From the NCBI GenBank assembly GCA_016195985.1, contig JACPYP010000007.1:62001-126000 (forward strand): a stretch of 64,000 nt of DNA, in the 5' to 3' direction. Source of the DNA: Acidobacteriota bacterium (GTDB taxonomy: Bacteria; Acidobacteriota; Holophagae; Holophagales; Holophagaceae). The notes beneath the pieces are model-generated. The model saw only the letters and a list, made by a program, of their open reading frames with translations, was not told where the DNA came from and did no database searches. Numbering within the stretch: position 1 is the stretch's first letter; each line of letters starts with the position of its first letter. Below, one piece after another: positions 11,575 to 47,190 of the stretch. A program made the translations under genes and the position numbers.

Positions 11575-13575
11575 TTAGGCCTCGTGCACCCGGCCTTCCG
11601 GAGGAAAGGGCAGCCGGACGATGAACAGGGACCCTTTGCCGACCTCGCTTCTCACGGTGATCGTGCCCCCGTGCTGGTTCACCACGATGGCGTAGGCGAT
11701 GGCCAACCCTTGGCCTGTCCCCTTGCCGACCGGCTTGGTGGTGAAGAAGGGATCGAAGATCCTGGAACGGATCCCCTCGGGGATGCCGGTGCCCGAATCC
11801 TGCACCCTGATCTCCGCGAAATCCCCGCGGGACCGGGTGCTCACGCGGATCAGCCCCTTTTCTCCCTGGGCGTCCTTCAGGGCGCTTTCGATGGCGTGGG
11901 CGGCGTTGATCACCAGATTGAGAATGACCTGATTGATCTGGTCCGGGAGGCAGGGCACGAGCGGAAGGTCCGGGTCCAAATCCATCTCAAGCTCGGCCAT
12001 GTATTTCCATTCGCTCCGGCAAACCAGGGTGGTGGTTTCGATGGCCCGGTTGAGATCCACGGGCGTTTTGGTGGCGCTCCCGGGATGGCTGAAATCCTTC
12101 ATGGCGCGGACGATTTTCGTGACCCGCTGGACCCCTTCCTGGCACTGGTTGATGGCGACGGGCGTCTCTTCCTGGAGGAAGGCCAGATCCGCCTTTTCGA
12201 TCTTCTGCTGGATGGCCGGCACGAAGCTGGAAGCAGAGCCTTCCTCGACGTGCTTCAGCAGGGCCTGGAGCTGCTCCATCAAGGCCTGGTAGGTGTCGAA
12301 GGACTGGCGGAGGAACACCAGGTTGTCCCCGATGTACTGGGTGGGCGTATTGATCTCGTGCGCGATGCCGGCCGTGAGCTGTCCGATGGATTCCAGTTTC
12401 TGGGCCTGCCGCAACTGGATCTCCATGCGCTTCTGTTCGGTGACCTCCAGGTGCATCAGCACGATGTAGATGGCGTTCTCGGTGCTGAAGCGCGACACGA
12501 GCACCGTGAACCAGTGCCGGCCCTCCTCTTCGCCGAAGTCGTACTCCATGCCGCTCGATTCGACCGAGCCGTCCAGAACCTGGAGAAGGGCCGCGCCGAT
12601 GCTTCCGCCCTCCAGGCGCATGTCCGTCTGTCCGCTGCAAATCGCCTTGTAGTCGTCGCCCGGCTTCACCCCGTAGATGAACCGGTTGACGGGGCTGGAG
12701 AAGGCCTTCCACCGCTGGTTCGTCGCCTGGATGGTTCCTTCCCCATCCAGGATGGCGATGCAGGCTGGCAGGGCATCGAGGGTGGCCGACAGCAGATGCT
12801 CCGTTTGGCTCAACTGCTCCGAGCGCTGGATGACTTCTTCCTTCAGGTGGTCCTGGTAGGCCAGAAGCTTGGCATCGCGGGCCTGGATGTGATCCAGCAT
12901 GTCGTTGAAGGATTGGGAAAGCACGCCGATCTCGCCCCCTCCCTTCGACTGGAGCCGGATGCTGAAATCGCGCTGGTGGGAAATCCGCTGCGCCGTCTCG
13001 GCGAGGCTGAGGATCGGCGTGGAGACCTGCCGCTGAAGCACGGAAGAAGCGACAATGGCCAGAAGCAGCAGCCCAAGGCCGGCCGCGGACATGACTTTCA
13101 AAGCTGTCTGGAACTGGGCGCGCATCTCTTCCAGATCGGAGCGGATGAACAGAGTCCCCTTGAGCTGCCCTTCCTGGTATATCCGCACGAACATGTCCAG
13201 CACGCCCTCATGGAAGACGGCGTATTCATGGTCCGGCGCCACCTCGGGCAACGGCGCCGCGTTCTGCTTCGGCACGAGCGAGGTGAAGAGCTGGCCGTTC
13301 GCATCGAAGATCCGGGCGGCCAGGACGTGCTTGTTCGAGGAGAGGGCCTGAAGCGACTTGTTGCTGTCCAGCAGGTTCCCGAAATCCAGATCGGCGGACA
13401 CGACCTGCGACAGCACGAGGGCCTGCGTTTTGAGATCGCGGATCTGGCCTCTCCGCAGTTCGGCCCTCTCGAACAAGAAGAGGACCGTGAACGAGAACAG
13501 GAAGGTCAAGCCCGTGATGCAGGCCAGCAGCAGCGTCAAACGATGCTTCAGGGAGTGGATCTGCAGCTTCAGCAT
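11575..13575 (-). CDS. Membrane histidine kinase with periplasmic sensor, HAMP and PAS
   Basis: 666 aa from the ATG at 13575, seven bases after the stop of the YfiR-like gene. Transmembrane helix 1 is at about residues 13-37. A periplasmic sensor of about 130 residues follows (RGQIRDLKTQALVLSQVV... as in sCache/CHASE-like sensors). Helix 2 is near 170-190 and HAMP near 192-245. A coiled linker and a PAS-like domain follow (about 265-380), then HisKA with GIAHEINTPTQYIGDN and a full ATPase domain (NLVINAAHAI, DSGTGIPEG, FDPFFTTKP, GTGQGL). The periplasmic sensor next to a periplasmic YfiR-like protein suggests that protein gates the kinase. This is inferred from operon context only. Confidence 0.88.
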   Translation of the reverse strand: MLKLQIHSLKHRLTLLLACITGLTFLFSFTVLFLFERAELRRGQIRDLKTQALVLSQVVSADLDFGNLLDSNKSLQALSSNKHVLAARIFDANGQLFTSLVPKQNAAPLPEVAPDHEYAVFHEGVLDMFVRIYQEGQLKGTLFIRSDLEEMRAQFQTALKVMSAAGLGLLLLAIVASSVLQRQVSTPILSLAETAQRISHQRDFSIRLQSKGGGEIGVLSQSFNDMLDHIQARDAKLLAYQDHLKEEVIQRSEQLSQTEHLLSATLDALPACIAILDGEGTIQATNQRWKAFSSPVNRFIYGVKPGDDYKAICSGQTDMRLEGGSIGAALLQVLDGSVESSGMEYDFGEEEGRHWFTVLVSRFSTENAIYIVLMHLEVTEQKRMEIQLRQAQKLESIGQLTAGIAHEINTPTQYIGDNLVFLRQSFDTYQALMEQLQALLKHVEEGSASSFVPAIQQKIEKADLAFLQEETPVAINQCQEGVQRVTKIVRAMKDFSHPGSATKTPVDLNRAIETTTLVCRSEWKYMAELEMDLDPDLPLVPCLPDQINQVILNLVINAAHAIESALKDAQGEKGLIRVSTRSRGDFAEIRVQDSGTGIPEGIRSRIFDPFFTTKPVGKGTGQGLAIAYAIVVNQHGGTITVRSEVGKGSLFIVRLPFPPEGRVHEA

Positions 13576-13582
13576 GGCAGGC

Positions 13583-14155
13583 TCACGGGGTTTCGACGAT
13601 TTTGGTCTTATCCTTGGCAAGTGATAAAAAGCTGGAACTGATCTCGAACCCGGCCTCCTTGACCGCCTTCAGGTTGATTTCGAGGCTCAAGGCTTTCGAG
13701 ATGATGGATAGATTCAGCATGACCCCGTTCTGGGCGAATCCGGGCGAGTCGGCCACGGTGAAAATGGGCTTGCCTTTGCAGTAGGCCAGAATCTTGGGGA
13801 GCTGGTCCGCTTCAGACCCGCAAATGAAGAGGATGTCACAGCCGTCGATCGCGGATTCCCGGAATCGGCGGACATACACCACCCGGATGGGACGGTTCCG
13901 GATCGTTTTCGTCGGCACCAGGCCATCCAGGTGCGCGTCGAATGGCGAATTGCCCAGCACGCCCACCACGAAGGGGCGCTGGCCCGCGGCGCCTTCGGCC
14001 GGACGGGGCCACGTCACGTAGCTTCCGATCACGATGAGGGTCCGGGCCTTGATCTCGTACTCCGCCATGCTCCCCACCTGGAACACAGGAGCCACGGCGA
14101 ACCCTGCCGCCACAGCGGAGCAGGCCATGAAAAAAAACGGGATAGATGCAGCCAT
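13583..14155 (-). CDS. YfiR-family (DUF4154) periplasmic regulator
   Basis: 190 aa from the ATG at 14155, chosen because it opens a signal peptide (MAASIPFFFMACSAVAAG...). A TTG at 14212 would add 19 residues, and neither start has a strong ribosome site. The mature part shows DUF4154 hallmarks: AEYEIKARTLIVIGSYVTWP near the N-terminus, FVVGVLGNSPF, CDILFICGSEADQLP, FTVADSPGFAQNGVMLNL, and a tail ending in ISSSFLSLA. In Pseudomonas YfiR is a periplasmic repressor of the diguanylate cyclase YfiN. Here the next gene is a histidine kinase, so the family member may instead control a phosphorelay. First gene of the six-gene signalling operon. Confidence 0.85.
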   Translation of the reverse strand: MAASIPFFFMACSAVAAGFAVAPVFQVGSMAEYEIKARTLIVIGSYVTWPRPAEGAAGQRPFVVGVLGNSPFDAHLDGLVPTKTIRNRPIRVVYVRRFRESAIDGCDILFICGSEADQLPKILAYCKGKPIFTVADSPGFAQNGVMLNLSIISKALSLEINLKAVKEAGFEISSSFLSLAKDKTKIVETP

Positions 14156-14387
14156 TTGGAGCAAATGGTAGATCCATAAGTCCACCAGACCTAGGCCTTT
14201 CTTCGCTGACAATTGTGCCTAGTGTTTGACAGAAAACGCCTGCTGTTACCACTGGTGAGACGGAATCTCAGAATTGTGATCCTTCTGCCCCTTGAAACTG
14301 GGAAGATCTGTGGATTGGAGTTCTGTTTCCGCGAACGGCTTGGCATACCGATATTTCGGACAATTCAATCCTTAAAAGGAGAAGCTG

Positions 14388-37111: not shown

Positions 37112-37438
37112 GTGCTCTCCACGTTTCTGCACGACCCGCCGCGAATCGATCAACGCTGTCCCCGAGGGGCGAGATGAGGGCGAAGGAACGAGCAGGAACA
37201 TTGGCCGTCACAGCATCCCCAGGGCCCACTCATAAATACGCTATTGTGTATTAATGAGACTCATTCTCATTATTGATGCCAGCGGTTCCTCTGTCAATGC
37301 CTTCCCGTCGCCACGCTGCAGATGCGGGATGGACCGGCCCAGCGGGTGGTATCCTCGGCCAAACCCGAAAAATTCCGGAGATAGAGACGCGACTTCCTTC
37401 GATGTCGCAGTCAGCGTTCCAGCCCAGAGGAGGAGTCG
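37112..37438. other. Divergent intergenic region between the peroxidase operon and the HEAT-repeat genes
   Basis: This 327-base stretch has no gene I can support. It contains an AT-rich island (about 37233-37277) with the Fur-like palindrome at 37252-37272, and otherwise GC-rich sequence leading to a strong GAGGAGG site for the gene at 37439. Short open frames here lack ribosome sites and protein-like composition. It probably holds promoters for both flanking transcripts. Confidence 0.6.
37252..37272. promoter_or_regulatory. Fur-like operator TAATGAGA-N5-TCTCATTA
   Basis: A perfect inverted repeat with eight-base arms (TAATGAGA at 37252-37259, TCTCATTA at 37265-37272) and a five-base spacer CTCAT. 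The core TGAGA-N5-TCTCA matches the inverted heptamer organisation of iron boxes bound by Fur-family repressors. The same core and spacing recur at 39143-39157. It lies between divergent genes for the di-heme peroxidase and the HEAT-repeat proteins and could control both. Confidence 0.7.
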
Positions 37439-38281
37439 ATGCCGCGCGTGCCGAATCTGGGCGATCCCCTGATTTACAAACGGCTCGGGGTCGAACGCGC
37501 GAGTTCCGATGAGGCTGGGCTGCTTCTTGAGGCGGGCTGGGGACCGGCCTTCGACGCAGCCGCCCGCGAAGCATACGAGGTCTTGTTTGCGGGAAGTCCG
37601 GCTTTCGAAACGAAATGGGGGCCGATCCACGCAGATCTCACGTCGCCCCATGCGGCGGACAGGCTCCGAGGCCTTGAACTGATTCTGAAGGCCGCCTGCG
37701 AGCCACAGCAATGGCTTTGGAATCCCCGTGTCACCGAGGCGCTTCTGGAACTGCTCCGGACCGCCGAGGGCGTGGCGCTCGAAAAGGCCGGGCTGGCCCT
37801 GGTGCGCATTCTCGGCCCCTTCCCGGACCGGCGGGCTCACGGCGCATGCCTGCCACTGCTCACTCATCCGCTGCCCAGGATCCGTGCCTCCGCCGTCTGG
37901 AGCGTTGGACTCTCCGGCGGCGCCGGGGCATGGTCGGATGTGCTCCCTCTGATATCCGACGGCATCGCGGAAGTGCGTCAGGCAGCGCTTTCATCGCTTT
38001 CGAACGGCTATTCGGACTTGCCGGAAGAAGGGCGGGCGCAGCTCCAATCGGCCGCCATCGCGGCATTGAAGGATCGCGTCGATGGCGTCAGGCTCGCCGC
38101 GGTCGCCATGTTGGGCTCCATCGGCGACACCGCCTCTCTGCAAGCCTTGGCCGATATCAAGCCGCGCCGGATGGTCTGGCGGGAGGCGGTCAATACGGCC
38201 ATCGCGGAGATCCTGAAGCGGGCCGCGTCAACGCCCGGATCCGGCAGGGAGCGAAGCGCGTCCCGGAAAGGGCTGAAGTGA
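37439..38281 (+). CDS. HEAT-like repeat protein, first of a tandem pair
   Basis: 280 aa with GAGGAGG before the ATG. There is no signal peptide or membrane helix. The middle and C-terminal parts are alpha-alpha repeats of HEAT/PBS-lyase type (ACLPLLTHPLPRIRASAVWSVGLSGG; VLPLISDGIAEVRQAALSSLSNG; AAIAALKDRVDGVRLAAVAMLGSIGDTASLQALADI). The N-terminus contains LLLEAGWGPAFDAAAREAYEVLF, which recurs in the next gene. HEAT proteins usually act as protein-binding scaffolds, and no enzymatic motif is visible. The gene is flanked by two Fur-like operators and followed by its paralogue. Confidence 0.82.
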   Translation: MPRVPNLGDPLIYKRLGVERASSDEAGLLLEAGWGPAFDAAAREAYEVLFAGSPAFETKWGPIHADLTSPHAADRLRGLELILKAACEPQQWLWNPRVTEALLELLRTAEGVALEKAGLALVRILGPFPDRRAHGACLPLLTHPLPRIRASAVWSVGLSGGAGAWSDVLPLISDGIAEVRQAALSSLSNGYSDLPEEGRAQLQSAAIAALKDRVDGVRLAAVAMLGSIGDTASLQALADIKPRRMVWREAVNTAIAEILKRAASTPGSGRERSASRKGLK

Positions 38282-39081
38282 CGAAGGTGGTCGAACAGGC
38301 GCGGAGGCTGCGGGCGGAAGGAAAAACGGCCACGGCGGAGACCCTTCTGCTTGAAGCGGGATGGGGCCTGCCGAACCGCGAGGCCGCGCGCCAAGCCTAC
38401 GACGAGATGTTCCCGCCGAACGCCATTCTGAAACAGTGGCTCGATGGCGCCCTGGCCGACGCGCAATCGCAGGACCGCGACGTGAAGCGGAAGGCCCTGG
38501 CGGCCGTGGTCCACGAGGCCTTGAGCGAGGCGACACCGTCCAGCGGCGTCTGGCTCAGGAGCCCCCGCACCACCGGGATCCTGATCGCCCTGCTCCGCGA
38601 TCCGGATCCCGTTGCGGCCGATGGCGCCTGCCTCACCTTGTGCCGTGTCTTTTCGCTCTACTTCCGCGATCAGCGCGCCTACAAGGACCTGGTCACTCTG
38701 CTCGGGAGCGTACGCTGGTTGACGCGGATGTGGGCCGTCCGCGCCGTCTGCGCCCTGCGGCGGCCCGACAGCTTTCAGCACATCGAGACCCTGCTCGCGG
38801 ATCCCGAACCCATGGTGCGCAGCCAAACCTTCGACTGGCTCGACCGGTCGGCTCAGATGGACGTTCTTTCAGAAAAAGAACTGCTACGGCTGGAGCGGGC
38901 TGCCCGTGCCGCGCTGCAGGACGGGAACGCGACCGTCCGCGCGCGCGCCACCACCGTGCTGGCGCGCATCGGCGACCGGACGACGCTCGAACAGCTCTCC
39001 GGAAGGTACGACCCGTCCCGGCTCGTTCAAAACACGATCGCGTGGGCCATCAAGGAAATCAGCGCCCGCAGCGGGGATTGA
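38278..39081 (+). CDS. HEAT-like repeat protein, second of a tandem pair
   Basis: 267 aa with a GTG start that overlaps the preceding stop (GTGA), with GGAAAGGG upstream. It repeats the N-terminal signature of its neighbour (LLLEAGWGLPNREAARQAYDEMF), then HEAT-like helices (LVTLLGSVRWLTRMWAVRAVCALRRPDSFQHIETLLADPEPMVRSQTFDWLD; AARAALQDGNATVRARATTVLARIGDRTTLEQL). It is cytoplasmic, with no catalytic motif. Translational coupling of the two paralogues suggests a heteromeric scaffold. It ends 60 bases before the second Fur-like box, which probably serves the TonB receptor operon. Confidence 0.82.
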   Translation: MTKVVEQARRLRAEGKTATAETLLLEAGWGLPNREAARQAYDEMFPPNAILKQWLDGALADAQSQDRDVKRKALAAVVHEALSEATPSSGVWLRSPRTTGILIALLRDPDPVAADGACLTLCRVFSLYFRDQRAYKDLVTLLGSVRWLTRMWAVRAVCALRRPDSFQHIETLLADPEPMVRSQTFDWLDRSAQMDVLSEKELLRLERAARAALQDGNATVRARATTVLARIGDRTTLEQLSGRYDPSRLVQNTIAWAIKEISARSGD

Positions 39082-39142
39082 CAAGGTTCTCCCTGATATG
39101 AACTGGCTTGCGCAAGCAACGAAGGTCAGTGTGAATTATTAT

Positions 39143-39157
39143 TGAGATTGCGTCTCA
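39143..39157. promoter_or_regulatory. Fur-like operator TGAGA-N5-TCTCA upstream of the TonB receptor
   Basis: TGAGA (39143-39147), spacer TTGCG, TCTCA (39153-39157), within an AT-rich island following TTATTAT. It has the same arms and spacer length as the site at 37252-37272. It lies about 150 bases before the TonB-dependent receptor start, the classic target of Fur repression. Confidence 0.65.
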
Positions 39158-39243
39158 GTACTGTAAACTTCGACTCACGCCGTTAAGCGCCGTTTTTCCC
39201 TGCCCCCATCCTCTCAACCAAATCAAGAAGCCAGACACCTTGG

Positions 39244-39308: not shown

Positions 39309-41564
39309 ATGCACATGCACCCCCGTCATCCAATCCTGCATGCCGGACTGGCCCTGGCGCTGACCGGGTCTCCCCTGGCGGCCGAAAACACCCCGCCGCC
39401 CTCGACCGTACCCGCCAAGAAACCGAAGAAAGAGGACATCCCCTCCGCCGTGGTGGTGGTTTCCGCCACCCGCACGGAAAGGGCCGAAAAGGAGACCACC
39501 GCCACCGTGACCGTCACGACGGACCGGGAGATCGAGCGGCGTCTGGTCACCAACATCATCGATCTCACCCGCACGGAACCCGGGGTGGAAGTGGCCGGGC
39601 AGCCTGATCGCAAAGGCCCGTCCAGCTTCAACATCCGCGGCATCGGGGGAAACCGCGTGCTCATCCTGGTGGACGGCGTCAACCTGCCGGACGGGGCCGA
39701 AGCCTCCCGGGGACTGAGCCGCGACTATGTCGACCTGGACTCCCTCAAGCGGATGGAGATCCTCCGCGGATCCGGCTCGGCCCTCTATGGAAGTGATGCC
39801 CTGGCCGGCGTGGTGACCTACACCACGCTCGACGCCTCGGATCTCTTGAGCAAGACGGGCAGCTTCGCCGGCCGCATCAAGACCGGATATGCCAGCGCCA
39901 GCAATCAAAAGGCCGCCACCACGACGCTCGCCGGCAGGCAGGGATCATGGGATGGGATTCTGGTGGTCACGCGCCGGGAAGGCAACGAGACCACTCCCGC
40001 CTTCGGCGTGCCCAATGCCATGACCGCCCAGTCCTCCAGCCTCCTGGCCAAACTGGGCTGGCAGCCCAGTGCCCGCCACAGGATGCAGCTCGCCTTCCAG
40101 GGCTTCGAGCGCGAAAACAAGATCTTCCTGAACAGCCTCCTCGGACCGGCCCTCGGCGCCCCGGGAACCTTCATCGCAGACGATCGCGCCAAGGACCGGA
40201 ACCGCCGCGCCCAGTTCAACTTCGAGCATGTCTTCGAGGACGACGCGGCCTTCCTGCAGCGGATCGAGTGGCGCGTGTTCTACCAGTCCGCCAGCAGCCT
40301 GGAGCACACGGACGAGTTCCGGGAGACGCGGACGACCACGCCATACACCGAGCGCGTCCGCCTGACGGACTACACCTTCGACCAGAACATCTGGGGCCTC
40401 CGCTCCCAGGCGGAACGCCGCTTCACGCAGGGCGGATGGGCCCACCGCCTGCTGTTCGGCCTGGACCTGAACCGCACCGAGACCTCCGAGCCCTACGACC
40501 GGACCCAGATCACCTTCAACACCGGCGCCGTCACCAAAAATGTGGCGGGCCAGCTCTACCCCATCAAGCTGATCCCGGATTCCCGGACGACCACCACTGG
40601 CATCTTCGTGCAGAACGAGATGCTCAGCCCCAGTGGCGTCTGGTCCATCGTGCCCGGCCTGCGCTTCGACCGCTACGAACTCAACCCCCGTCCAGACGCC
40701 GTTTTCACGAACGGCAACACCCTGAACGCCCCCGTGGCCTCCATCCAGAATTCGGCGGTGAGCCCGAAGCTGGGAGTCATCGGCAAGCTCGACGGCACAT
40801 GGACGGTCTACACGCAGTACGCCCAGGGCTTCCGGAATCCGCCCTACGACTACACCAACATGACCCTGACCTCCTTCGCCCAGGACTACCGGATCATCCC
40901 GAACCCTTCCCTGAAGCCCGAGCACAGCCACAGCTACGAATTGGGCCTCCGGGGCGACGCGGACACCTGGAACCTGAGCTTCGCGCTGTTCCAGAACCGC
41001 TACACGGATTTCATCACCGACGTGAACCTCGGCCCGGATCCCGTCTCCGGAGTCAGCATGACGTTTCAGTACCAGAACATCCAGGACGTGCGCATCCAAG
41101 GCGCGGAGCTCCGCGCCGGCTGCATCTTCCTGGACGGTTGGCGGTCGGGCCTCAACGTGGGCTTCGCCAAGGGCGAGAACGGCCGGAACCACGCGCCCAT
41201 CAACTCCGTGGCCCCCATGCGATCGAGCCTGGAGCTTGGGTACCGCCGGGGCGACCGCTGGGGCACCGACGCCACCCTGACCGCCGTCTCCTCCAAAAAG
41301 CAGGGGGACGTGGCTCTGGATCCCGCCAACGGGTACGTCAATCCCTACCTCACCCCCGGCTACGCCAAGCTCGACCTCATGGGCTTTGTCGCCTTTAAGC
41401 GGAAGGGAGAGCTGCGCCTCCAGGGCGGCCTTTTCAACGCCTTGAACAAAGGCTATTGGCGCTGGGAGGACGTGCGCGGCTTCCAGAACGGCGACGCCTC
41501 CCTTCAGCGCTACTCGCAGCCTGGGCGCCACTTCGGAGTGAGCCTCACCTACAGCTGGCAGTAG
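39309..41564 (+). CDS. TonB-dependent outer-membrane receptor, heme/hemoglobin type
   Basis: About 751 aa from the ATG at 39309 (an ATG two codons on is possible); signal peptide ends near SPLAAENT. The N-terminus has a TonB-box-like segment (SAVVVVSATRTER) and a plug domain with IIDLTRTEPGVEV, FNIRGIGGNRVLILVDGVNLPD and RGSGSALYGSDALAGVV. A 22-strand-type barrel follows, ending VSLTYSWQ. It carries FRNPPYDYTN followed by NPSLKPEHSHSYELG, resembling the FRAP and NPNL boxes of heme receptors; no His is seen between the boxes. It imports an iron- or heme-type ligand with TonB energy. First gene of an operon with an exported chelatase. Confidence 0.9.
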   Translation: MHMHPRHPILHAGLALALTGSPLAAENTPPPSTVPAKKPKKEDIPSAVVVVSATRTERAEKETTATVTVTTDREIERRLVTNIIDLTRTEPGVEVAGQPDRKGPSSFNIRGIGGNRVLILVDGVNLPDGAEASRGLSRDYVDLDSLKRMEILRGSGSALYGSDALAGVVTYTTLDASDLLSKTGSFAGRIKTGYASASNQKAATTTLAGRQGSWDGILVVTRREGNETTPAFGVPNAMTAQSSSLLAKLGWQPSARHRMQLAFQGFERENKIFLNSLLGPALGAPGTFIADDRAKDRNRRAQFNFEHVFEDDAAFLQRIEWRVFYQSASSLEHTDEFRETRTTTPYTERVRLTDYTFDQNIWGLRSQAERRFTQGGWAHRLLFGLDLNRTETSEPYDRTQITFNTGAVTKNVAGQLYPIKLIPDSRTTTTGIFVQNEMLSPSGVWSIVPGLRFDRYELNPRPDAVFTNGNTLNAPVASIQNSAVSPKLGVIGKLDGTWTVYTQYAQGFRNPPYDYTNMTLTSFAQDYRIIPNPSLKPEHSHSYELGLRGDADTWNLSFALFQNRYTDFITDVNLGPDPVSGVSMTFQYQNIQDVRIQGAELRAGCIFLDGWRSGLNVGFAKGENGRNHAPINSVAPMRSSLELGYRRGDRWGTDATLTAVSSKKQGDVALDPANGYVNPYLTPGYAKLDLMGFVAFKRKGELRLQGGLFNALNKGYWRWEDVRGFQNGDASLQRYSQPGRHFGVSLTYSWQ

Positions 41565-41612
41565 CCTTTGAACCGCGTTCAATCGGCCGACCCCATCCGT
41601 CCGGAGCCCATC

Positions 41613-42554
41613 ATGCGCAGCCAGAAAGCGTTCCTCTTCTTGATCCGGTCCCTTGCTTGCCTCCTCGCCATGGCCACGCTTGCCTTCAATCCCGCCAGGG
41701 CCCAGGCCCCTGCGGCCAAGGTGGGCGTGCTGCTGGTGAATCACGGATCGCGCTCCGCCACCTGGCGGGCCGCGCTGCTCCAGACCGAGCGCAATACCCG
41801 CGAGGCGATGCTCCGGACGAACCTGATCCAAGGGGTGAAGACGGCCTTCATGGAATACACCGAACCCTCCATCGCCACCCGGATGAAGGAGTTCGACGCC
41901 GAGGGCTTTTCAGACGTGGTGATCGTGCCCGTGTTCCTCACGGTCAGCAGCCATACCTTCGACGACATCCCCACCATCCTCGGCCGGAAGGCCGATCCCC
42001 ACTCCATGCAGACCCTCAAGATCGAAAACATCGAGCGCTACACGCCCAAGGCCCGGACCCACCTTGCGCCGAATCTGGATTTTTCCGCCTTGCTGCGGGA
42101 GAACATCCTCCGGCGCGCCAAGGCCCTCTCGAAGGATCCCGCTAAGGAGGGTCTGGTGCTGATCGCCTACGGAGACGCCACCTACCACAAGCAGTGGTCC
42201 GACCTGATGGAACGAACCGCCGCGCACGTCCTCAGCCGCACCGGCATGAGCACCTTCTCCTACGGCTGGGCGGGCCACGTGGCGCACTACGACCCGGACC
42301 ACACCACCCGCGCCGTCGAGCAGGTCCTGCGGACGCGCGAACGGGCAGTGGTGGTGCCCGTGCTCGTGGCCCACGACGAGATGTTCCAAGTGAAAATCAT
42401 CGGCGGCGGAATCGCCCAGGTGCCGGACCACCAGAAGCGCGTGGCCTATGTTCCCGACGCCATCCTGCCGGATCCGTCCGTCGAGGCCTGGGTGGTGGCC
42501 ACCGCCAGGGAGTACGCCGAGCGGGCCCGCGGCGGAAAGGCCCCGGGGCGATGA
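41613..42554 (+). CDS. Exported CbiX/CbiK-like chelatase
   Basis: 313 aa from the ATG at 41613 (GGAGCCC upstream). It starts with a clear signal peptide (RSLACLLAMATLAFNPARAQA), so it is predicted to be periplasmic. The chelatase fold shows the family start VGVLLVNHGSRSATW (candidate metal-binding His in NHGSR), EGFSDVVIVPVFLTVSSHTF (second His of the CbiX-type site) and a repeated half with VLIAYGDATYHKQW and VVVPVLVAHDEMF. Cytosolic relatives insert cobalt or iron into sirohydrochlorin. A periplasmic CbiK is known in Desulfovibrio. Next to a heme-type receptor it may remove or insert metal in imported tetrapyrroles. Confidence 0.83.
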   Translation: MRSQKAFLFLIRSLACLLAMATLAFNPARAQAPAAKVGVLLVNHGSRSATWRAALLQTERNTREAMLRTNLIQGVKTAFMEYTEPSIATRMKEFDAEGFSDVVIVPVFLTVSSHTFDDIPTILGRKADPHSMQTLKIENIERYTPKARTHLAPNLDFSALLRENILRRAKALSKDPAKEGLVLIAYGDATYHKQWSDLMERTAAHVLSRTGMSTFSYGWAGHVAHYDPDHTTRAVEQVLRTRERAVVVPVLVAHDEMFQVKIIGGGIAQVPDHQKRVAYVPDAILPDPSVEAWVVATAREYAERARGGKAPGR

Positions 42555-43123
42555 GCGCCACGTTTTCGGCGGGCCTCCAGCGCTGGAACCGCATCCTGCA
42601 CCGCGACGCCGGCTACTTCCTGACCGCCTTCGTGATCGTGTACTGCCTCTCCGGCATTGCCTTGAACCACATCCACGAGTGGAATCCGGACTTCATCATT
42701 CAGAAGCGGACCATTCCCCTGGAGCGGGTCTACACCGAGTCCGAGGTGGGACCGGAGCTGGCCAATGCGTTGGCGGGGCGGGTCGGCGAAGGGGCTTTCC
42801 GGATCATCGACGTGCCCACGCCCGGCCAAGTGAAAATCTACTTCGACAATGCCTTCCTTCAATTGCATCTGGCCGAACAGCAGGCCGTGTACGAGCGGGT
42901 GGTGCGGCGTCCCCTGATCTACGATGCCAACATCATGCACCGCAACAGCCTCAGGTCCTGGCGCTGGTTCTCGGATGCGTTTTCGGTCCTGCTCATTCTG
43001 GTCAACGTGACGGGCCTGTTCCTCCTCAAGGGGAGGCATGGCCTCGGCGCGCGGGGGAAATGGCTGATTCTCGCCGGGGCGGTACCTCCTCTGGCCGCCG
43101 TGGTAGCTTTCCGGCTGCTATAG
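42551..43123 (+). CDS. PepSY-associated transmembrane protein
   Basis: 190 aa; the ATG overlaps the chelatase stop (ATGA). Helix 1 (AGYFLTAFVIVYCLSGIALNHIHEW) is preceded by the RWNRILHRDAG motif. A PepSY-like extracytoplasmic segment follows (about residues 50-125). Helix 2 comes after NSLRSWRWFSDAFSVLLILVNVTGLFLL, and helix 3 is at the C-terminus (ILAGAVPPLAAVVAF). His residues in LHRDAG, LNHIHEW and IMHRNS recall b-type heme ligands of PepSY ferric-reductase-like proteins. Likely an inner-membrane redox partner of the receptor-chelatase system. Confidence 0.82.
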   Translation: MSATFSAGLQRWNRILHRDAGYFLTAFVIVYCLSGIALNHIHEWNPDFIIQKRTIPLERVYTESEVGPELANALAGRVGEGAFRIIDVPTPGQVKIYFDNAFLQLHLAEQQAVYERVVRRPLIYDANIMHRNSLRSWRWFSDAFSVLLILVNVTGLFLLKGRHGLGARGKWLILAGAVPPLAAVVAFRLL

Positions 43124-43156: not shown

Positions 43157-43180
43157 GCGGCCCCTAGGTTTCAGGGCCGC
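43157..43180. terminator. Candidate hairpin between convergent operons
   Basis: GCGGCCC (43157-43163) and GGGCCGC (43174-43180) form a perfect seven-base stem with a ten-base loop that includes the stop codon of the sigma54 regulator. It sits between the converging PepSY and regulator genes, where a bidirectional terminator is expected. No T-tract follows, so intrinsic termination is uncertain. Confidence 0.35.
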
Positions 43181-45173
43181 CCTTCTGCAGCTTGCGGTAA
43201 AGGGTGTTCCTGGTCATTCCCAGCTCCTGCGCGGCCTTGCTGATGTTTCCATTCCAATCGCGCAGGCAGGCCTGAATTCTCTCCAGCTCCTCGGCCTGCA
43301 GCTGCTGCCGGAGGCCGGCGAGCCCGGGGGTACCAGCGCGGCCCCGGGATGGCCCCTCCGCCCGGGACGCCTGCGGCGCGGGGGCGTTCAGGATCTCCTC
43401 GGGGATGTCCTTCACCCAGATGGTTCCTTCCTGAAGGGAGTGGACCATGCGCTCGACGACGTTCTGGAATTCGCGGATGTTGCCGGGCCAGGCATAGCCC
43501 TGGAGGGCGCGGACCACGGCGGGATCGGCCCGCAGCTTCGAGCCCCACCGGCGAGCGCCGAACTTGAGGATGAATGCCTCCAGGAGTCCCGGAATGTCCT
43601 CCGGATGCTCCCGCAGGGGCGGCAGCTTGATCGTGGACACGTTGAGGCGATAGAAGAGGTCCTGCCGGAACGTGCCTTTCCGGATCTCTTCCTTCAGGTC
43701 TTTGTGGGTGGCGCAGATGATCCGCACGTCCACCACGAAGGGCCGGTCGCCCCCGAGCCGGGTGATGGTCCGGTCCTGGAGCACCCGGAGCAGCGCGATC
43801 TGCTGTTCCAGAGGCATGTCCCCGATCTCGTCCAGGAAGAGGGTGCCTCCGCTGGCCAGCTCGAATTTCCCCGGGCGCCCTCCCCGCGCCGCCCCGGTGA
43901 AGGCTCCGTCCCGGTATCCGAACAGTTCGCTGGCGATGAGCTCCCGGGGGATGGCCCCGCAGTTCACGGCCACGAAGGGGCCCTTCCGGCGGCCCGACTG
44001 GTTGTGGATGGCATGGGCGAACATTTCCTTGCCTGTGCCGCTTTCCCCGGTCAGCAGCACATTGCTTTCGTTGGCCGAGGCCAGCTGGCCCAGCTGGACG
44101 GCCCGCCGCAGCGCCTCGCCCTGGCCCAGGATGTCCTCGAAGCGAAAGGTCGCCTGGGCTCCGTTGAAGCGGTTGATGAGCCGCTTGAGCTTGTGGATGG
44201 GATTCACGAAAAGCACGGCCCCTTTCAGAAGGGCCCCTTCATCCTGGATCGGCTTGCCGCTGGCGATGCACTGGATGACGCCCTGGCCGGAGTTCAGCTC
44301 CAGCTCCCGGTCCAGGAACTCCTTTCCCCATTCCAGCAGATCGCGGACAGGCGCCGGATCCCGGATCAGGTCCTCGATGCGCTTTCCGGCCATCTGGAGG
44401 CTGGAGGCCCCCAGGAGGCGCTCCGCCACGGGATTGATCTGACTGATGGCGCCGTCCACATCCAGCACCAGCACGCCGTCGGTGACCGTGAGGAGGATGC
44501 TGGAAAGCCGGCTGTTCAGGAGGGTGAGTTCCTGGTTCTTCCGCACCAGCCTCAGTTCGTGCTGGATGGCCTGAACCGCGGCCATCACCAGCCCCAGGGT
44601 GTGGATGTGGGTCTCGTCCACGGGCCCGCTCATGTCCAGCAGGCCGATGGTCTTCCCGCCGGGATCAAGGATCGGCGCCCCCGAACAGGTCCACCGGTGG
44701 TGCTTCTGGCAGAAGTGCTCCGCGCCGGAAACCTGGAACGGACGGCCCAGGACCAAGGCCGTGCCGGCCCCATTGGTCCCCACCTCCCCTTCGGTCCACA
44801 GCGCGCCCTTGTTCAGATTCAGATCCTGGGTGGAAAGGATGCGGTCCCGATCCCCCACGGCTTCCAGCAGGTACCCCTGCTCGTCGAAGAGCAGCACCAC
44901 GAAGCTGGAGCCCTCCACGAGGCTGTGCAGGTTCTCCATGAAGGGCTTGGCGGCCCGGATCAGCTCCTGCTTCCGTTCCGCCAGGGCCGCAAACAGATCG
45001 GAGTCCAGCACCAGCGTGGAGCGCCCAGCCCGCGGGTCCACCCCCGCGGCCTTGCAGCGGCGCCACGAAGCCTCCAATTCGGGACGCAGGGTGTCCGGCT
45101 CGATCCTCCCCTCGCGGATGAAGCGGTCCCAGATTCCCCAGATCTCCGTGGTGTGGCCTGCCGCGTACGCCAT
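43164..45173 (-). CDS. Sigma54-dependent transcriptional activator, AcoR-like
   Basis: 669 aa from the ATG at 45173 (GAGGGG close upstream; earlier in-frame starts are possible). The GAF-type sensor (about residues 55-205; LALWTEGEVGTNGAGTALVLGRP and HFCQKHHRWTCSGAPI) is like AcoR. A PAS domain follows (about 235-345), then the AAA+ core: Walker A GESGTGKEMFA, the sigma54-contacting GAFTGA loop, Walker B GTLFLDEIGDM, and sensor II. The C-terminus is a Fis-type helix-turn-helix (GNISKAAQELGMTRNTLYRKL). It is transcribed away from the aldehyde oxidoreductase gene, its likely target. The Cys/His-rich GAF segment may sense redox state or metal. Confidence 0.9.
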   Translation of the reverse strand: MAYAAGHTTEIWGIWDRFIREGRIEPDTLRPELEASWRRCKAAGVDPRAGRSTLVLDSDLFAALAERKQELIRAAKPFMENLHSLVEGSSFVVLLFDEQGYLLEAVGDRDRILSTQDLNLNKGALWTEGEVGTNGAGTALVLGRPFQVSGAEHFCQKHHRWTCSGAPILDPGGKTIGLLDMSGPVDETHIHTLGLVMAAVQAIQHELRLVRKNQELTLLNSRLSSILLTVTDGVLVLDVDGAISQINPVAERLLGASSLQMAGKRIEDLIRDPAPVRDLLEWGKEFLDRELELNSGQGVIQCIASGKPIQDEGALLKGAVLFVNPIHKLKRLINRFNGAQATFRFEDILGQGEALRRAVQLGQLASANESNVLLTGESGTGKEMFAHAIHNQSGRRKGPFVAVNCGAIPRELIASELFGYRDGAFTGAARGGRPGKFELASGGTLFLDEIGDMPLEQQIALLRVLQDRTITRLGGDRPFVVDVRIICATHKDLKEEIRKGTFRQDLFYRLNVSTIKLPPLREHPEDIPGLLEAFILKFGARRWGSKLRADPAVVRALQGYAWPGNIREFQNVVERMVHSLQEGTIWVKDIPEEILNAPAPQASRAEGPSRGRAGTPGLAGLRQQLQAEELERIQACLRDWNGNISKAAQELGMTRNTLYRKLQKGGPET

Positions 45174-45275
45174 GGCCCCTCTATCGGTGCTCCCGAGCCT
45201 TGAGCCCTCCATTCTGAGGCAGACCGGGTCAAACAATAACAATATTGAGCAAAAAGATACAATTTAGAACAAAAC

Positions 45276-45291: not shown

Positions 45292-45459
45292 CCTGCCCAT
45301 AAACCTCGGTTTCTGTTTTTTCATTCATTTTTCCCTACCTCCTTGTCGCTTGGGACGAGGTCTCCGGACCCTTCCGGGAAGGGCCGCCGGGGTGGCCCCG
45401 CATCGCGGCACAGCTCCTGCGAAAGCGAGAGCGGCCTGGGCCTTCGGAAGGAGACAACC

Positions 45460-47190
45460 GTGAACAAGATCCTGCGCGTGAACATGCACGACCTGACCAC
45501 CTCGATCGAGGCCCTGCCTCCGGAATGGGCCGGCCTCGGCGGACGGGCGCTCACCTCGGCCATCGTGGCGAAGGAAGTCCCGCCCACCTGCCATGCCCTG
45601 GGGCCCGACAACAAGCTGGTCTTCGCGCCGGGGCTGCTCTCGGGCACGGCGGCATCCAACTCGGGCCGCCTTTCCGCAGGCGCGAAGAGCCCGCTGACCG
45701 GGGGCATCAAGGAATGCAATGTCGGCGGCACCGCGGCCCAGATGCTCGCGCGCCTTCGCATCAATGCCCTGATCGTGGAAGGCACGCCCAAGGGCGATGG
45801 GTGGTATTCCCTCCGCGTGAGCAAGGATGGCGTCGCCATCCAGGAGGAGGCCGGGCTCCTGGGCCTGGGCAACTTCGCGGTGATCGACGCCCTCCAGTCG
45901 CTCCTCGGCAAGAAGACCGGCGTCATCGCCATCGGCCCCGCGGGCGAGATGAAGCTCACCTCGGCGAACATCTCCGTGAAGGATCCCTCGGGGAAGATCC
46001 GCAGCCTTGGGCGCGGCGGCCTCGGCGCCGTCATGGGCTCCAAGCGCATCAAGTTCCTCAGCATCGACGACGAGGGCGCCCCCGGGATCCAGATCGCCGA
46101 TCCGGAGAAGTTCAAGAGCGCCTCCCGCATCTTCACGAAGGCGCTGATGGACCACCCCGTGAGCGGCCAGGGGCTTCCCACCTACGGCACCAACGTGCTG
46201 GTGAACATCCTGCACGAAGCCGGCGGCCTGCCCACGCGGAACTTCACCTACGGGCAGTTCGACGGCCACGAACAGATCTGCGGCGAAACCATGCACGACA
46301 CCATCGTGGCCCGCGGCGGCAAGCCCAGGCATGGCTGCCATGCCGGGTGCGTCATCCAATGTTCCCAGGTCTACAACGACAAAGACGGCCAGTACCTGAC
46401 CTCAGGATTCGAGTACGAAACCATCTGGGGACTGGGGGCCAACTGCTGCATCTCCACCCTGGACGACATCGCCCTGGCCGACAACATCATGGATGACCTC
46501 GGCCTCGATTCCATCGAGACCGCCGTGGCCTTCGGCGTGGCCATGGAGGCCGGGATTCTTCCCTGGGGCGACGGCAAGGAAGTGGTGCGGATCCTCCGGG
46601 AGGAGATCGGCAGGGGCACGGCCCTGGGCCGCGTGATCGGTTCGGGAGCGGGTGCCGTCGGGCGCACCTACGGCGTGACCCGCGTGCCCACCGTGAAGAA
46701 CCAGGCCATCCCCGCCTACGATCCGCGTTCGGTCAAAGGCATCGGGATCACCTACTGCACCAGCCCCATGGGCGCGGATCACACGGCGGGCTATACCATC
46801 GCCACCAACATCCTCAACGTGGGCGGGCAGGTGGATCCCCTGAAGAAGGACGGCCAGGTGGAGCTGTCCCGGAATCTCCAGATCGCCACCGCCGCCATCG
46901 ATTCCACGGGCATGTGCATCTTCATCGCCTTCCCGGCCCTGGACATCCCCGAATGCCTGCCGGCCCTGATCGACATGCTGAACGCCCGCTTCGGCGCGCA
47001 GCTGACGGGCGATGACGTGGTGGGCCTGGGCAAGCGCATCCTCAAGACCGAACGGGCCTTCAACCTGGCCGCCGGCATGACGGCCGCCGACGATCGCCTG
47101 CCCGAATTCTTCCGCACGGACCCGGTCGCGCCCCATCAGGCTGTCTGGGATTTCACCAACGAGGAAATCGACGCCTTCTGGAATTTCTGA
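45460..47190 (+). CDS. Aldehyde ferredoxin oxidoreductase family protein (tungsten/molybdenum pterin)
   Basis: 576 aa from a GTG at 45460 with GGAAGGAG upstream. Domain 1 (about residues 1-205) contains the pterin-binding GLGGRALTSAIVAKE, NSGRLSAGAKSPLTGGIKECNVGG and LGRGGLGAVMGSKRIK. Domains 2-3 carry a cysteine group HGCHAGCVIQCSQ (CxxxCxxxC rather than CxxCxxxC) and SGFEYETIWGLGANC. Further on are YCTSPMGADHTAGY and DSTGMCIF, the latter a likely fourth cluster ligand. It oxidises aldehydes to acids with ferredoxin or another acceptor. It is followed two bases later by a MoaD-like gene and is probably activated by the divergent sigma54 regulator. Confidence 0.9.
   Translation: MNKILRVNMHDLTTSIEALPPEWAGLGGRALTSAIVAKEVPPTCHALGPDNKLVFAPGLLSGTAASNSGRLSAGAKSPLTGGIKECNVGGTAAQMLARLRINALIVEGTPKGDGWYSLRVSKDGVAIQEEAGLLGLGNFAVIDALQSLLGKKTGVIAIGPAGEMKLTSANISVKDPSGKIRSLGRGGLGAVMGSKRIKFLSIDDEGAPGIQIADPEKFKSASRIFTKALMDHPVSGQGLPTYGTNVLVNILHEAGGLPTRNFTYGQFDGHEQICGETMHDTIVARGGKPRHGCHAGCVIQCSQVYNDKDGQYLTSGFEYETIWGLGANCCISTLDDIALADNIMDDLGLDSIETAVAFGVAMEAGILPWGDGKEVVRILREEIGRGTALGRVIGSGAGAVGRTYGVTRVPTVKNQAIPAYDPRSVKGIGITYCTSPMGADHTAGYTIATNILNVGGQVDPLKKDGQVELSRNLQIATAAIDSTGMCIFIAFPALDIPECLPALIDMLNARFGAQLTGDDVVGLGKRILKTERAFNLAAGMTAADDRLPEFFRTDPVAPHQAVWDFTNEEIDAFWNF

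Follow-up and report, generated by a model that had tools for sequence, protein, structure and literature searches.

A conserved chelatase-PepSY gene pair behind a heme receptor in an Acidobacteriota genome: a candidate system for periplasmic release of heme iron

What would a chelatase of the CbiX family do outside the cytoplasm, encoded between a heme receptor and a PepSY membrane protein? The question is raised by a three-gene locus at positions 39309-43123 of a 64,000-nucleotide stretch of DNA (the window; contig JACPYP010000007.1 of assembly GCA_016195985.1) from an Acidobacteriota bacterium of the family Holophagaceae. We propose that the chelatase removes iron from heme reductively in the periplasm, with electrons from its membrane neighbor, and we hold this with moderate confidence; both the direction of catalysis and the electron transfer are steps that we infer. 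The features of the locus are as follows.

39142-39157, plus strand: Fur-like operator TTGAGATTGCGTCTCA, one of three sites in the genome that match TTGAGANNNNGTCTCA exactly
39142-39169, plus strand: sigma-70-like promoter (TTGAGA, 16 nucleotides, TAAACT), overlapping the operator; 9 of 12 consensus matches
39309-41564, plus strand: TonB-dependent heme/hemoglobin receptor, PhuR-type, 751 amino acids, by TIGR01786, TIGR01785 and PhuR homology
41613-42554, plus strand: CbiX/SirB-type class II chelatase, predicted to be exported, 313 amino acids, by PF01903 and a structure model
41613-41705, plus strand: N-terminal signal-like sequence of the chelatase, residues 1-31, with a hydrophobic core and a cleavage site between ARA and QA placed by eye
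41742-41744, plus strand: codon of chelatase His44, which aligns with CfbA His9
41952-41954, plus strand: codon of chelatase His114, which aligns with CfbA His75
42551-42554, plus strand: ATGA start/stop overlap of the PepSY gene with the chelatase gene
42551-43123, plus strand: PepSY membrane protein (PF16357), three transmembrane (TM) segments, 190 amino acids, proposed electron donor

The receptor passes the curated cut-offs of two heme receptor models, TIGR01786 (412.6 bits; cut-off, 323.75) and TIGR01785 (362.3 bits; cut-off, 316.85). It is homologous to PhuR over residues 44 to 748 (E value of 1.9e-108), and the next-best match (3.1e-23) covers the plug region only. To our knowledge, PhuR is not encoded in an operon with a chelatase. 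A sequence-only reading of the window had described FRAP/NPNL-like boxes in the receptor, a Fur-like operator before it, and translational coupling of the chelatase and PepSY genes. All three descriptions held: the translation contains the stretches FRNPP and NPSLKPE, which we presume to be the boxes so named, and the operator and the ATGA overlap are present at the positions given above. The three-gene set is confirmed as a real, conserved, iron-linked operon.

We found relatives of the chelatase encoded at 54 loci (given here as L numbers). By their titles, these are mostly from Bacteroidota, with others from Nitrospira, Verrucomicrobia, Acidobacteria (L054), Turneriella (L038), and an Anaerolineales metagenome-assembled genome (MAG) (L036). 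A membrane redox-type protein adjoins the chelatase in 52 of the 53 loci that could be judged, L052 ending inside the chelatase gene. In 46 of the 54 loci there is a PepSY gene that begins between 12 nucleotides before and 37 nucleotides after the chelatase stop, and 11 of these share the 4-nucleotide overlap seen in the window (starts were projected). A pairing maintained in this way across several phyla suggests something far beyond chance neighborhood. A 51-protein tree places the window's chelatase with that of the L054 Acidobacteria MAG (support, 100/98); the next to join are two proteins from Verrucomicrobia and one from Bacteroidota (100/99). Within its own genus the gene is rare: at an E value of 1e-20 the chelatase is present in 1 of 60 genomes, its own (37 of the 60 are of the genus, its own included), and it was not found in the 36 other genomes of the genus, which are 71 to 100% complete. 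This count speaks against a genus-wide housekeeping role. The distribution fits that of an accessory cassette moved by horizontal transfer.

The PepSY protein matches PF16357 at 43.4 bits (cut-off, 27), its score for PF03929 (18.8) lying under the cut-off of 28.8, and hydropathy shows three hydrophobic segments. When it was aligned with the proteins of 32 loci, His40 and His130 were invariant and His17 was present in 32 of the 33 sequences. Hydropathy places His17 just before TM1, His40 at the far end of TM1, and His130 just before TM2, so that His40 and His130 would lie at the periplasmic side if the N terminus is cytoplasmic, the orientation that we assume. In six flavobacterial loci (L042 to L047), the gene after the chelatase encodes, in place of PepSY, a membrane protein with FMN_bind and Fer4_5 (4Fe-4S) domains, which we call NapH-like on the strength of those two domains; in L045 this gene is split over two open reading frames (ORFs). 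Since L026, which is titled Flavobacteriales, retains PepSY, the swap belongs to a clade of six loci and not to the whole order. Méheust et al. placed both PF16357 PepSY-like and NapH-like proteins among membrane electron-transfer systems and linked the PepSY-like proteins, which have three TM helices, to iron reduction (PMC8238504). Both partners thus look like membrane electron carriers. Because the slot beside the chelatase is filled by either of two unrelated carriers, we read it as the electron supply for heme demetalation, and the missing electron supply would be its best explanation. The sequence-only reading had the coupling of the PepSY gene right and gave the protein no role, which left that account incomplete.

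The six flavobacterial loci also differ elsewhere. The five of them included in the chelatase alignment described below lack His254, and the genomes of L042, L043, and L045 have a CobN-type gene. Some of the related loci also have a cytochrome b561-like neighbor (below cut-off) or a DUF6686 neighbor.

We then considered what kind of chelatase this is. The protein matches CbiX (PF01903) at 58.7 bits (cut-off, 22), and its best sequence matches among solved structures are CfbA/CbiX-S and SirB. It scores below the NCBIfam cut-offs for sirohydrochlorin nickelochelatases (CfbA, 64.8 against 120; PRK00923, 66.1 against 120). It has no CbiK Pfam match up to an E value of 1, and a profile made from the chelatase alignment, searched against solved sequences up to the same value, returned no CbiK or FetB chain. 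A CobN-Mg_chel domain, as in HmuS-type proteins, was not matched either. The AlphaFold model (predicted local distance difference test [pLDDT], 89.1; predicted template modeling score [pTM], 0.81) is closest to SirB (Z of 18.3 over 243 residues at 3.6 A) in a comparison in which many rows were tied. Ferrochelatases match at Z of 16.3 and less, Salmonella CbiK at 15.4, the periplasmic CbiK of Desulfovibrio vulgaris (2xvz) at 15.3, and Porphyromonas gingivalis FetB (9b86) at 15.1 over 228 residues at 3.7 A. The predicted fold is bilobal and of class II.

The class II chelatase family has a conserved His pair, and in bilobal enzymes this pair lies in the N-terminal lobe (Bacillus megaterium CbiX-L) or in the C-terminal lobe (Salmonella CbiK) (PMC7689651). 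In an alignment of the window's chelatase with relatives from 36 of the 54 loci, His44, His114, Glu81, and His222 are invariant in all 37 sequences, and His254 is retained in 31. Loss of the conserved His residues, which the sequence-only reading had named as evidence that would refute it, was therefore not observed. His44 and His114 align with His9 and His75 of CfbA, which we take to be the catalytic pair of that enzyme. By its sequence, then, the protein is of the CbiX-L type, with the pair in the N-terminal lobe. Exported CbiK-like enzymes would be expected to carry theirs in the C-terminal lobe; thus, a second chelatase lineage, CbiX besides CbiK, appears to have moved out of the cytoplasm.

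Evidence for export comes from the N termini, which we judged by a plain hydropathy and motif test rather than by a signal-peptide predictor. The N terminus of the window's chelatase, MRSQKAFLFLIRSLACLLAMATLAFNPARA followed by QA, resembles a type I signal peptide, in line with the signal peptide that the sequence-only reading had described. Among 50 chelatases (the window and 49 loci; the start is uncertain in L031 and cut in L034), a hydrophobic stretch is followed by a lipobox-like Cys in 36, a hydrophobic signal-like N terminus without a lipobox is present in 13, including the window's, and 1 (L036) has neither. As far as sequence tells, a cytoplasmic location, which the sequence-only reading had likewise named as refuting it, is not indicated for 49 of the 50.

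The surroundings of the chelatase point to heme iron. Receptors of two main clusters occur in 39 of the 54 loci. We compared the window's receptor and those of 36 of these loci (L003, L040, and L053 were omitted as partial) with family models at an E value of 1e-30, a threshold other than the curated cut-offs: 30 of the 37 match TIGR01785, 27 match TIGR01786, and 18 also match the B12 receptor model. HmuY-family proteins are encoded nearby in 29 or 30 of the 54 loci. This count draws on 11 one-member loci over the cut-off, with L038 confirmed and the L052 match below the cut-off, and it is given as a range since the non-matching proteins could leave no more than one of the 17 two-member loci without a HmuY match. 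Of the neighbor proteins in two BLAST clusters, 43 of 46 match HmuY, a rate that is partly by construction because the 46 were chosen by BLAST clustering; 10 were confirmed singly over the cut-off. At L031, fur-feoA-feoA-feoB lies in the same stretch as the chelatase and PepSY genes. For genome-wide searches we used 49 carrier genomes, that is, the 54 loci minus L034, L052, and L053 (short or cut contigs), L040 (a second contig of the L013 assembly), and the exceptional L036. FeoB (FeoB_C) is present in 39 of them, and a CobN/HmuS-type gene exceeds the cut-off in 3, all flavobacterial (L042, L043, and L045).

The window's own genome (4.26 Mb, 98.3% complete) fits this picture. It encodes FeoB, behind an operator-like copy, and no CobN-type protein was found in it. 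The chelatase is its sole CbiX match. HemH is also encoded, so the exported chelatase is not needed for heme synthesis. Exact matches to TTGAGANNNNGTCTCA occur three times in the genome: before the heme operon, before a TonB gene, and before a receptor of the siderophore type. A copy with one mismatch lies about 240 bp upstream of FeoB. The siderophore-type receptor ORF (C11) is cut by the end of its locus and does not reach the cut-off of the siderophore model that fits it best. The genome has genes for two Fur-family proteins. Regulation unrelated to iron had been named as a reason to abandon the sequence-only reading; as far as can be told from sequence, the operator is one common to iron genes, and the operon is probably under Fur-type iron-starvation control, with Fur the presumed ligand of the site. 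The promoter-like pair at 39142-39169 is one of two in the region against a shuffle mean of 0.6, which is weak alone; the second pair is at the same place on the minus strand.

We therefore envisage the following pathway. Heme would enter through the PhuR-type receptor and be bound in the periplasm by the exported chelatase, between its two lobes. The chelatase reaction would run backwards, releasing Fe(II) and protoporphyrin. Reduction of ferric heme would be powered by the co-translated PepSY protein, which may carry electrons outward through a heme held by His17, His40, and His130; in the flavobacterial clade, the flavin/4Fe-4S membrane protein would fill this role. The Fe(II) would then be imported, here presumably by FeoB. 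HmuS-type demetalation requires reduced heme (PMC12583661 and PMC13227078), and where the electrons for reducing heme in the periplasm come from in vivo is described as unresolved (PMC13227078). A wider claim is that the two proteins form a dedicated reductive heme demetalase that has passed horizontally between phyla, in which a reversed periplasmic chelatase of the CbiX lineage works with an obligate but interchangeable donor in environmental bacteria, including Nitrospira, that rarely have HmuS. We advance that claim tentatively, as one that falls somewhat short of an even chance.

The sequence-only reading had proposed a periplasmic metal exchange on imported porphyrins, by iron removal or cobalt loading, as an alternative to HmuS- or heme oxygenase-based systems. 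Its sequence basis stands (a heme receptor, an exported chelatase, a retained His pair, regulation of the iron type). An alternative to HmuS or heme oxygenase agrees with the scarcity of CobN among the carriers and with the window's own genome, in which neither a CobN-type protein nor a PF01126 heme oxygenase was found, in a search that did not extend to the HemS/ChuS, HugZ, IsdG, and EfeB-type families. Cobalt loading is not favored, because HmuY, FeoB, and the Fur-like context point to heme iron; it was set aside on that context, with no search for cobalt or B12 genes in the related genomes.

Several observations weigh against reductive demetalation. Some concern the chelatase and its loci. 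The Anaerolineales MAG locus L036 (5974-6822) encodes a CbiX protein without a signal and without a redox neighbor; it may be a cytoplasmic relative or the result of a binning error. Six of the 37 chelatases (five flavobacterial rows and Turneriella) have another residue at the position of His254. No receptor of the two clusters lies in the stretch at 15 of the 54 loci, although some of these contigs are short. FeoB_C was not matched in 10 of the 49 carrier genomes, whose completeness is unstated, and these include all seven Nitrospira genomes. Distances among the chelatases correlate with those among the PepSY proteins (r of 0.80 over 43 rows), but receptor distances correlate too (r of 0.67, against 0.83 for PepSY on the same 30 rows), so that part of the chelatase-PepSY correlation reflects common descent.

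Others concern the PepSY protein and the window's own genome. The PepSY model is modest (pLDDT, 76.6; pTM, 0.50), and a Foldseek search with it gave no credible match; the absence of FoxB from that search is no proof that the folds differ. A PepSY profile found no relative among solved structures. FoxB has two His pairs, one on each side of the membrane, that hold two hemes, and only three conserved His residues are present here, a shortfall that a PepSY dimer could make good by completing a FoxB-like set. The genome encodes one FecCD-type permease, nearest to BtuC but below cut-off, so heme may be imported intact through it. When one mismatch is allowed, the operator has 12 matches at 9 distinct sites against 7 for a reversed control. 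The relaxed set thus holds chance matches (C18 and the second C26 site look like chance; the C13 site precedes a sensor-like ORF), which leaves the three exact sites and the FeoB copy as the ones that count.

How do other explanations compare? The chelatase might work forward, the PepSY protein making periplasmic Fe(II) and the chelatase inserting iron (or cobalt or manganese) into imported free porphyrin. The usual reaction of class II chelatases is the insertion of divalent metals (PMC7689651), P. gingivalis FetB is credited in a review with making Mn-porphyrin (PMC13402209), and the FetB structure matches our model as described above. However, iron-starvation control suits the release of iron better than its use, and the HmuY and FeoB neighbors and the genome's own HemH likewise speak against insertion, which we regard as unlikely. 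Alternatively, the chelatase might be a noncatalytic periplasmic heme carrier, with PepSY serving as a heme reductase or as an inner membrane permease; PepSY proteins have indeed been proposed as permeases in place of ABC systems (PMC7190382). A carrier would not account for the invariance of the His pair and Glu81 in 37 chelatases, nor would an FMN/Fe-S protein be expected in the place of a permease. We consider this explanation improbable.

The chelatase could also be a cytoplasmic enzyme of siroheme or cobalamin synthesis that adjoins the receptor by accident. Membership in the CbiX family favors this, as does its being the only CbiX match in the genome. Against it stand the signal-like or lipobox N termini of 49 of 50 proteins, on which we set it aside, the linkage to heme receptors, HmuY, and redox partners across phyla, and the 36 other genomes of the genus in which the chelatase was not found. 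This explanation is very improbable. Reductive demetalation remains the reading that we prefer.

We take IhtB and FetB of P. gingivalis to be one protein. IhtB is a CbiK-like outer membrane chelatase suggested to take iron from heme (Dashper 2000, cited in PMC6460266), and exported chelatases acting on heme iron are thus already in print (PMC6460266, PMC12583661, PMC13227078, and PMC13402209). The protein studied here differs in that its N-terminal lobe carries the His pair, the CbiX-L arrangement, and IhtB/FetB is described without a redox partner gene in the text consulted. The D. vulgaris CbiK shares the class II fold and is periplasmic by its entry title, but its His pair should be in the C-terminal lobe by the rule drawn from Salmonella CbiK (PMC7689651). 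HmuS of Bacteroidota resembles the proposed system in demetalating heme that must be reduced, within HmuY/TonB systems, and periplasmic release followed by FeoAB uptake was shown or argued for in Bacteroides fragilis (PMC6460266); HmuS is CobN-like, whereas the window encodes a class II chelatase. The FoxB, HiuB, and XusC operons combine a TonB receptor with a PepSY inner membrane protein for reductive iron release, and HiuABC is Fur regulated. FoxB has been described as a periplasmic reductase of ferri-siderophores, and a like action, ahead of FeoAB, is proposed for HiuB (PMC13001220). In these operons, however, the substrates are ferric siderophores, and the parts consulted mention no chelatase.

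A chelatase-PepSY-heme receptor operon was not found in our literature search, most subscription papers lying outside it, nor in the accessible literature on the HmuY systems of Flavobacterium psychrophilum, Bacteroides thetaiotaomicron, and Porphyromonas. With IhtB and HmuS as precedents for exported heme chelatases, what is new is the conserved pairing of chelatase and PepSY and the swap of that partner. The route of iron from heme in Bacteroidota is described as not fully understood (PMC6460266). Here the chelatase gene overlaps that of its candidate donor, and one clade has another redox protein in the donor's place, which makes the question of electron supply directly testable with two small proteins. 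If the proposal is true, it offers a candidate heme-iron route for environmental bacteria, Nitrospira among them, and it suggests that CbiX was, besides CbiK, a lineage that moved to the periplasm.

Other features of the window were also noted. A Fur-like site with one mismatch (37255-37270) lies just upstream of a gene for a di-heme MauG/CCP-type cytochrome (PF03150; 35921-37201, minus strand), which suggests that this gene may be under iron-linked control. Another (14256-14271) precedes a YfiR-like gene (PF13689; 13583-14212, minus strand), which is followed by a histidine kinase gene (11575-13620, minus strand) whose match to a YfiR-associated kinase domain model is below cut-off. Two HEAT-repeat ORFs (37439-38281 and 37711-39081, both plus strand) are directly 5' of the operon on the same strand. 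Beside the operon on its other side, and divergent, are genes for a sigma-54 activator with GAF and PAS domains (43164-45242, minus strand) and an aldehyde ferredoxin oxidoreductase (45343-47190, plus strand).

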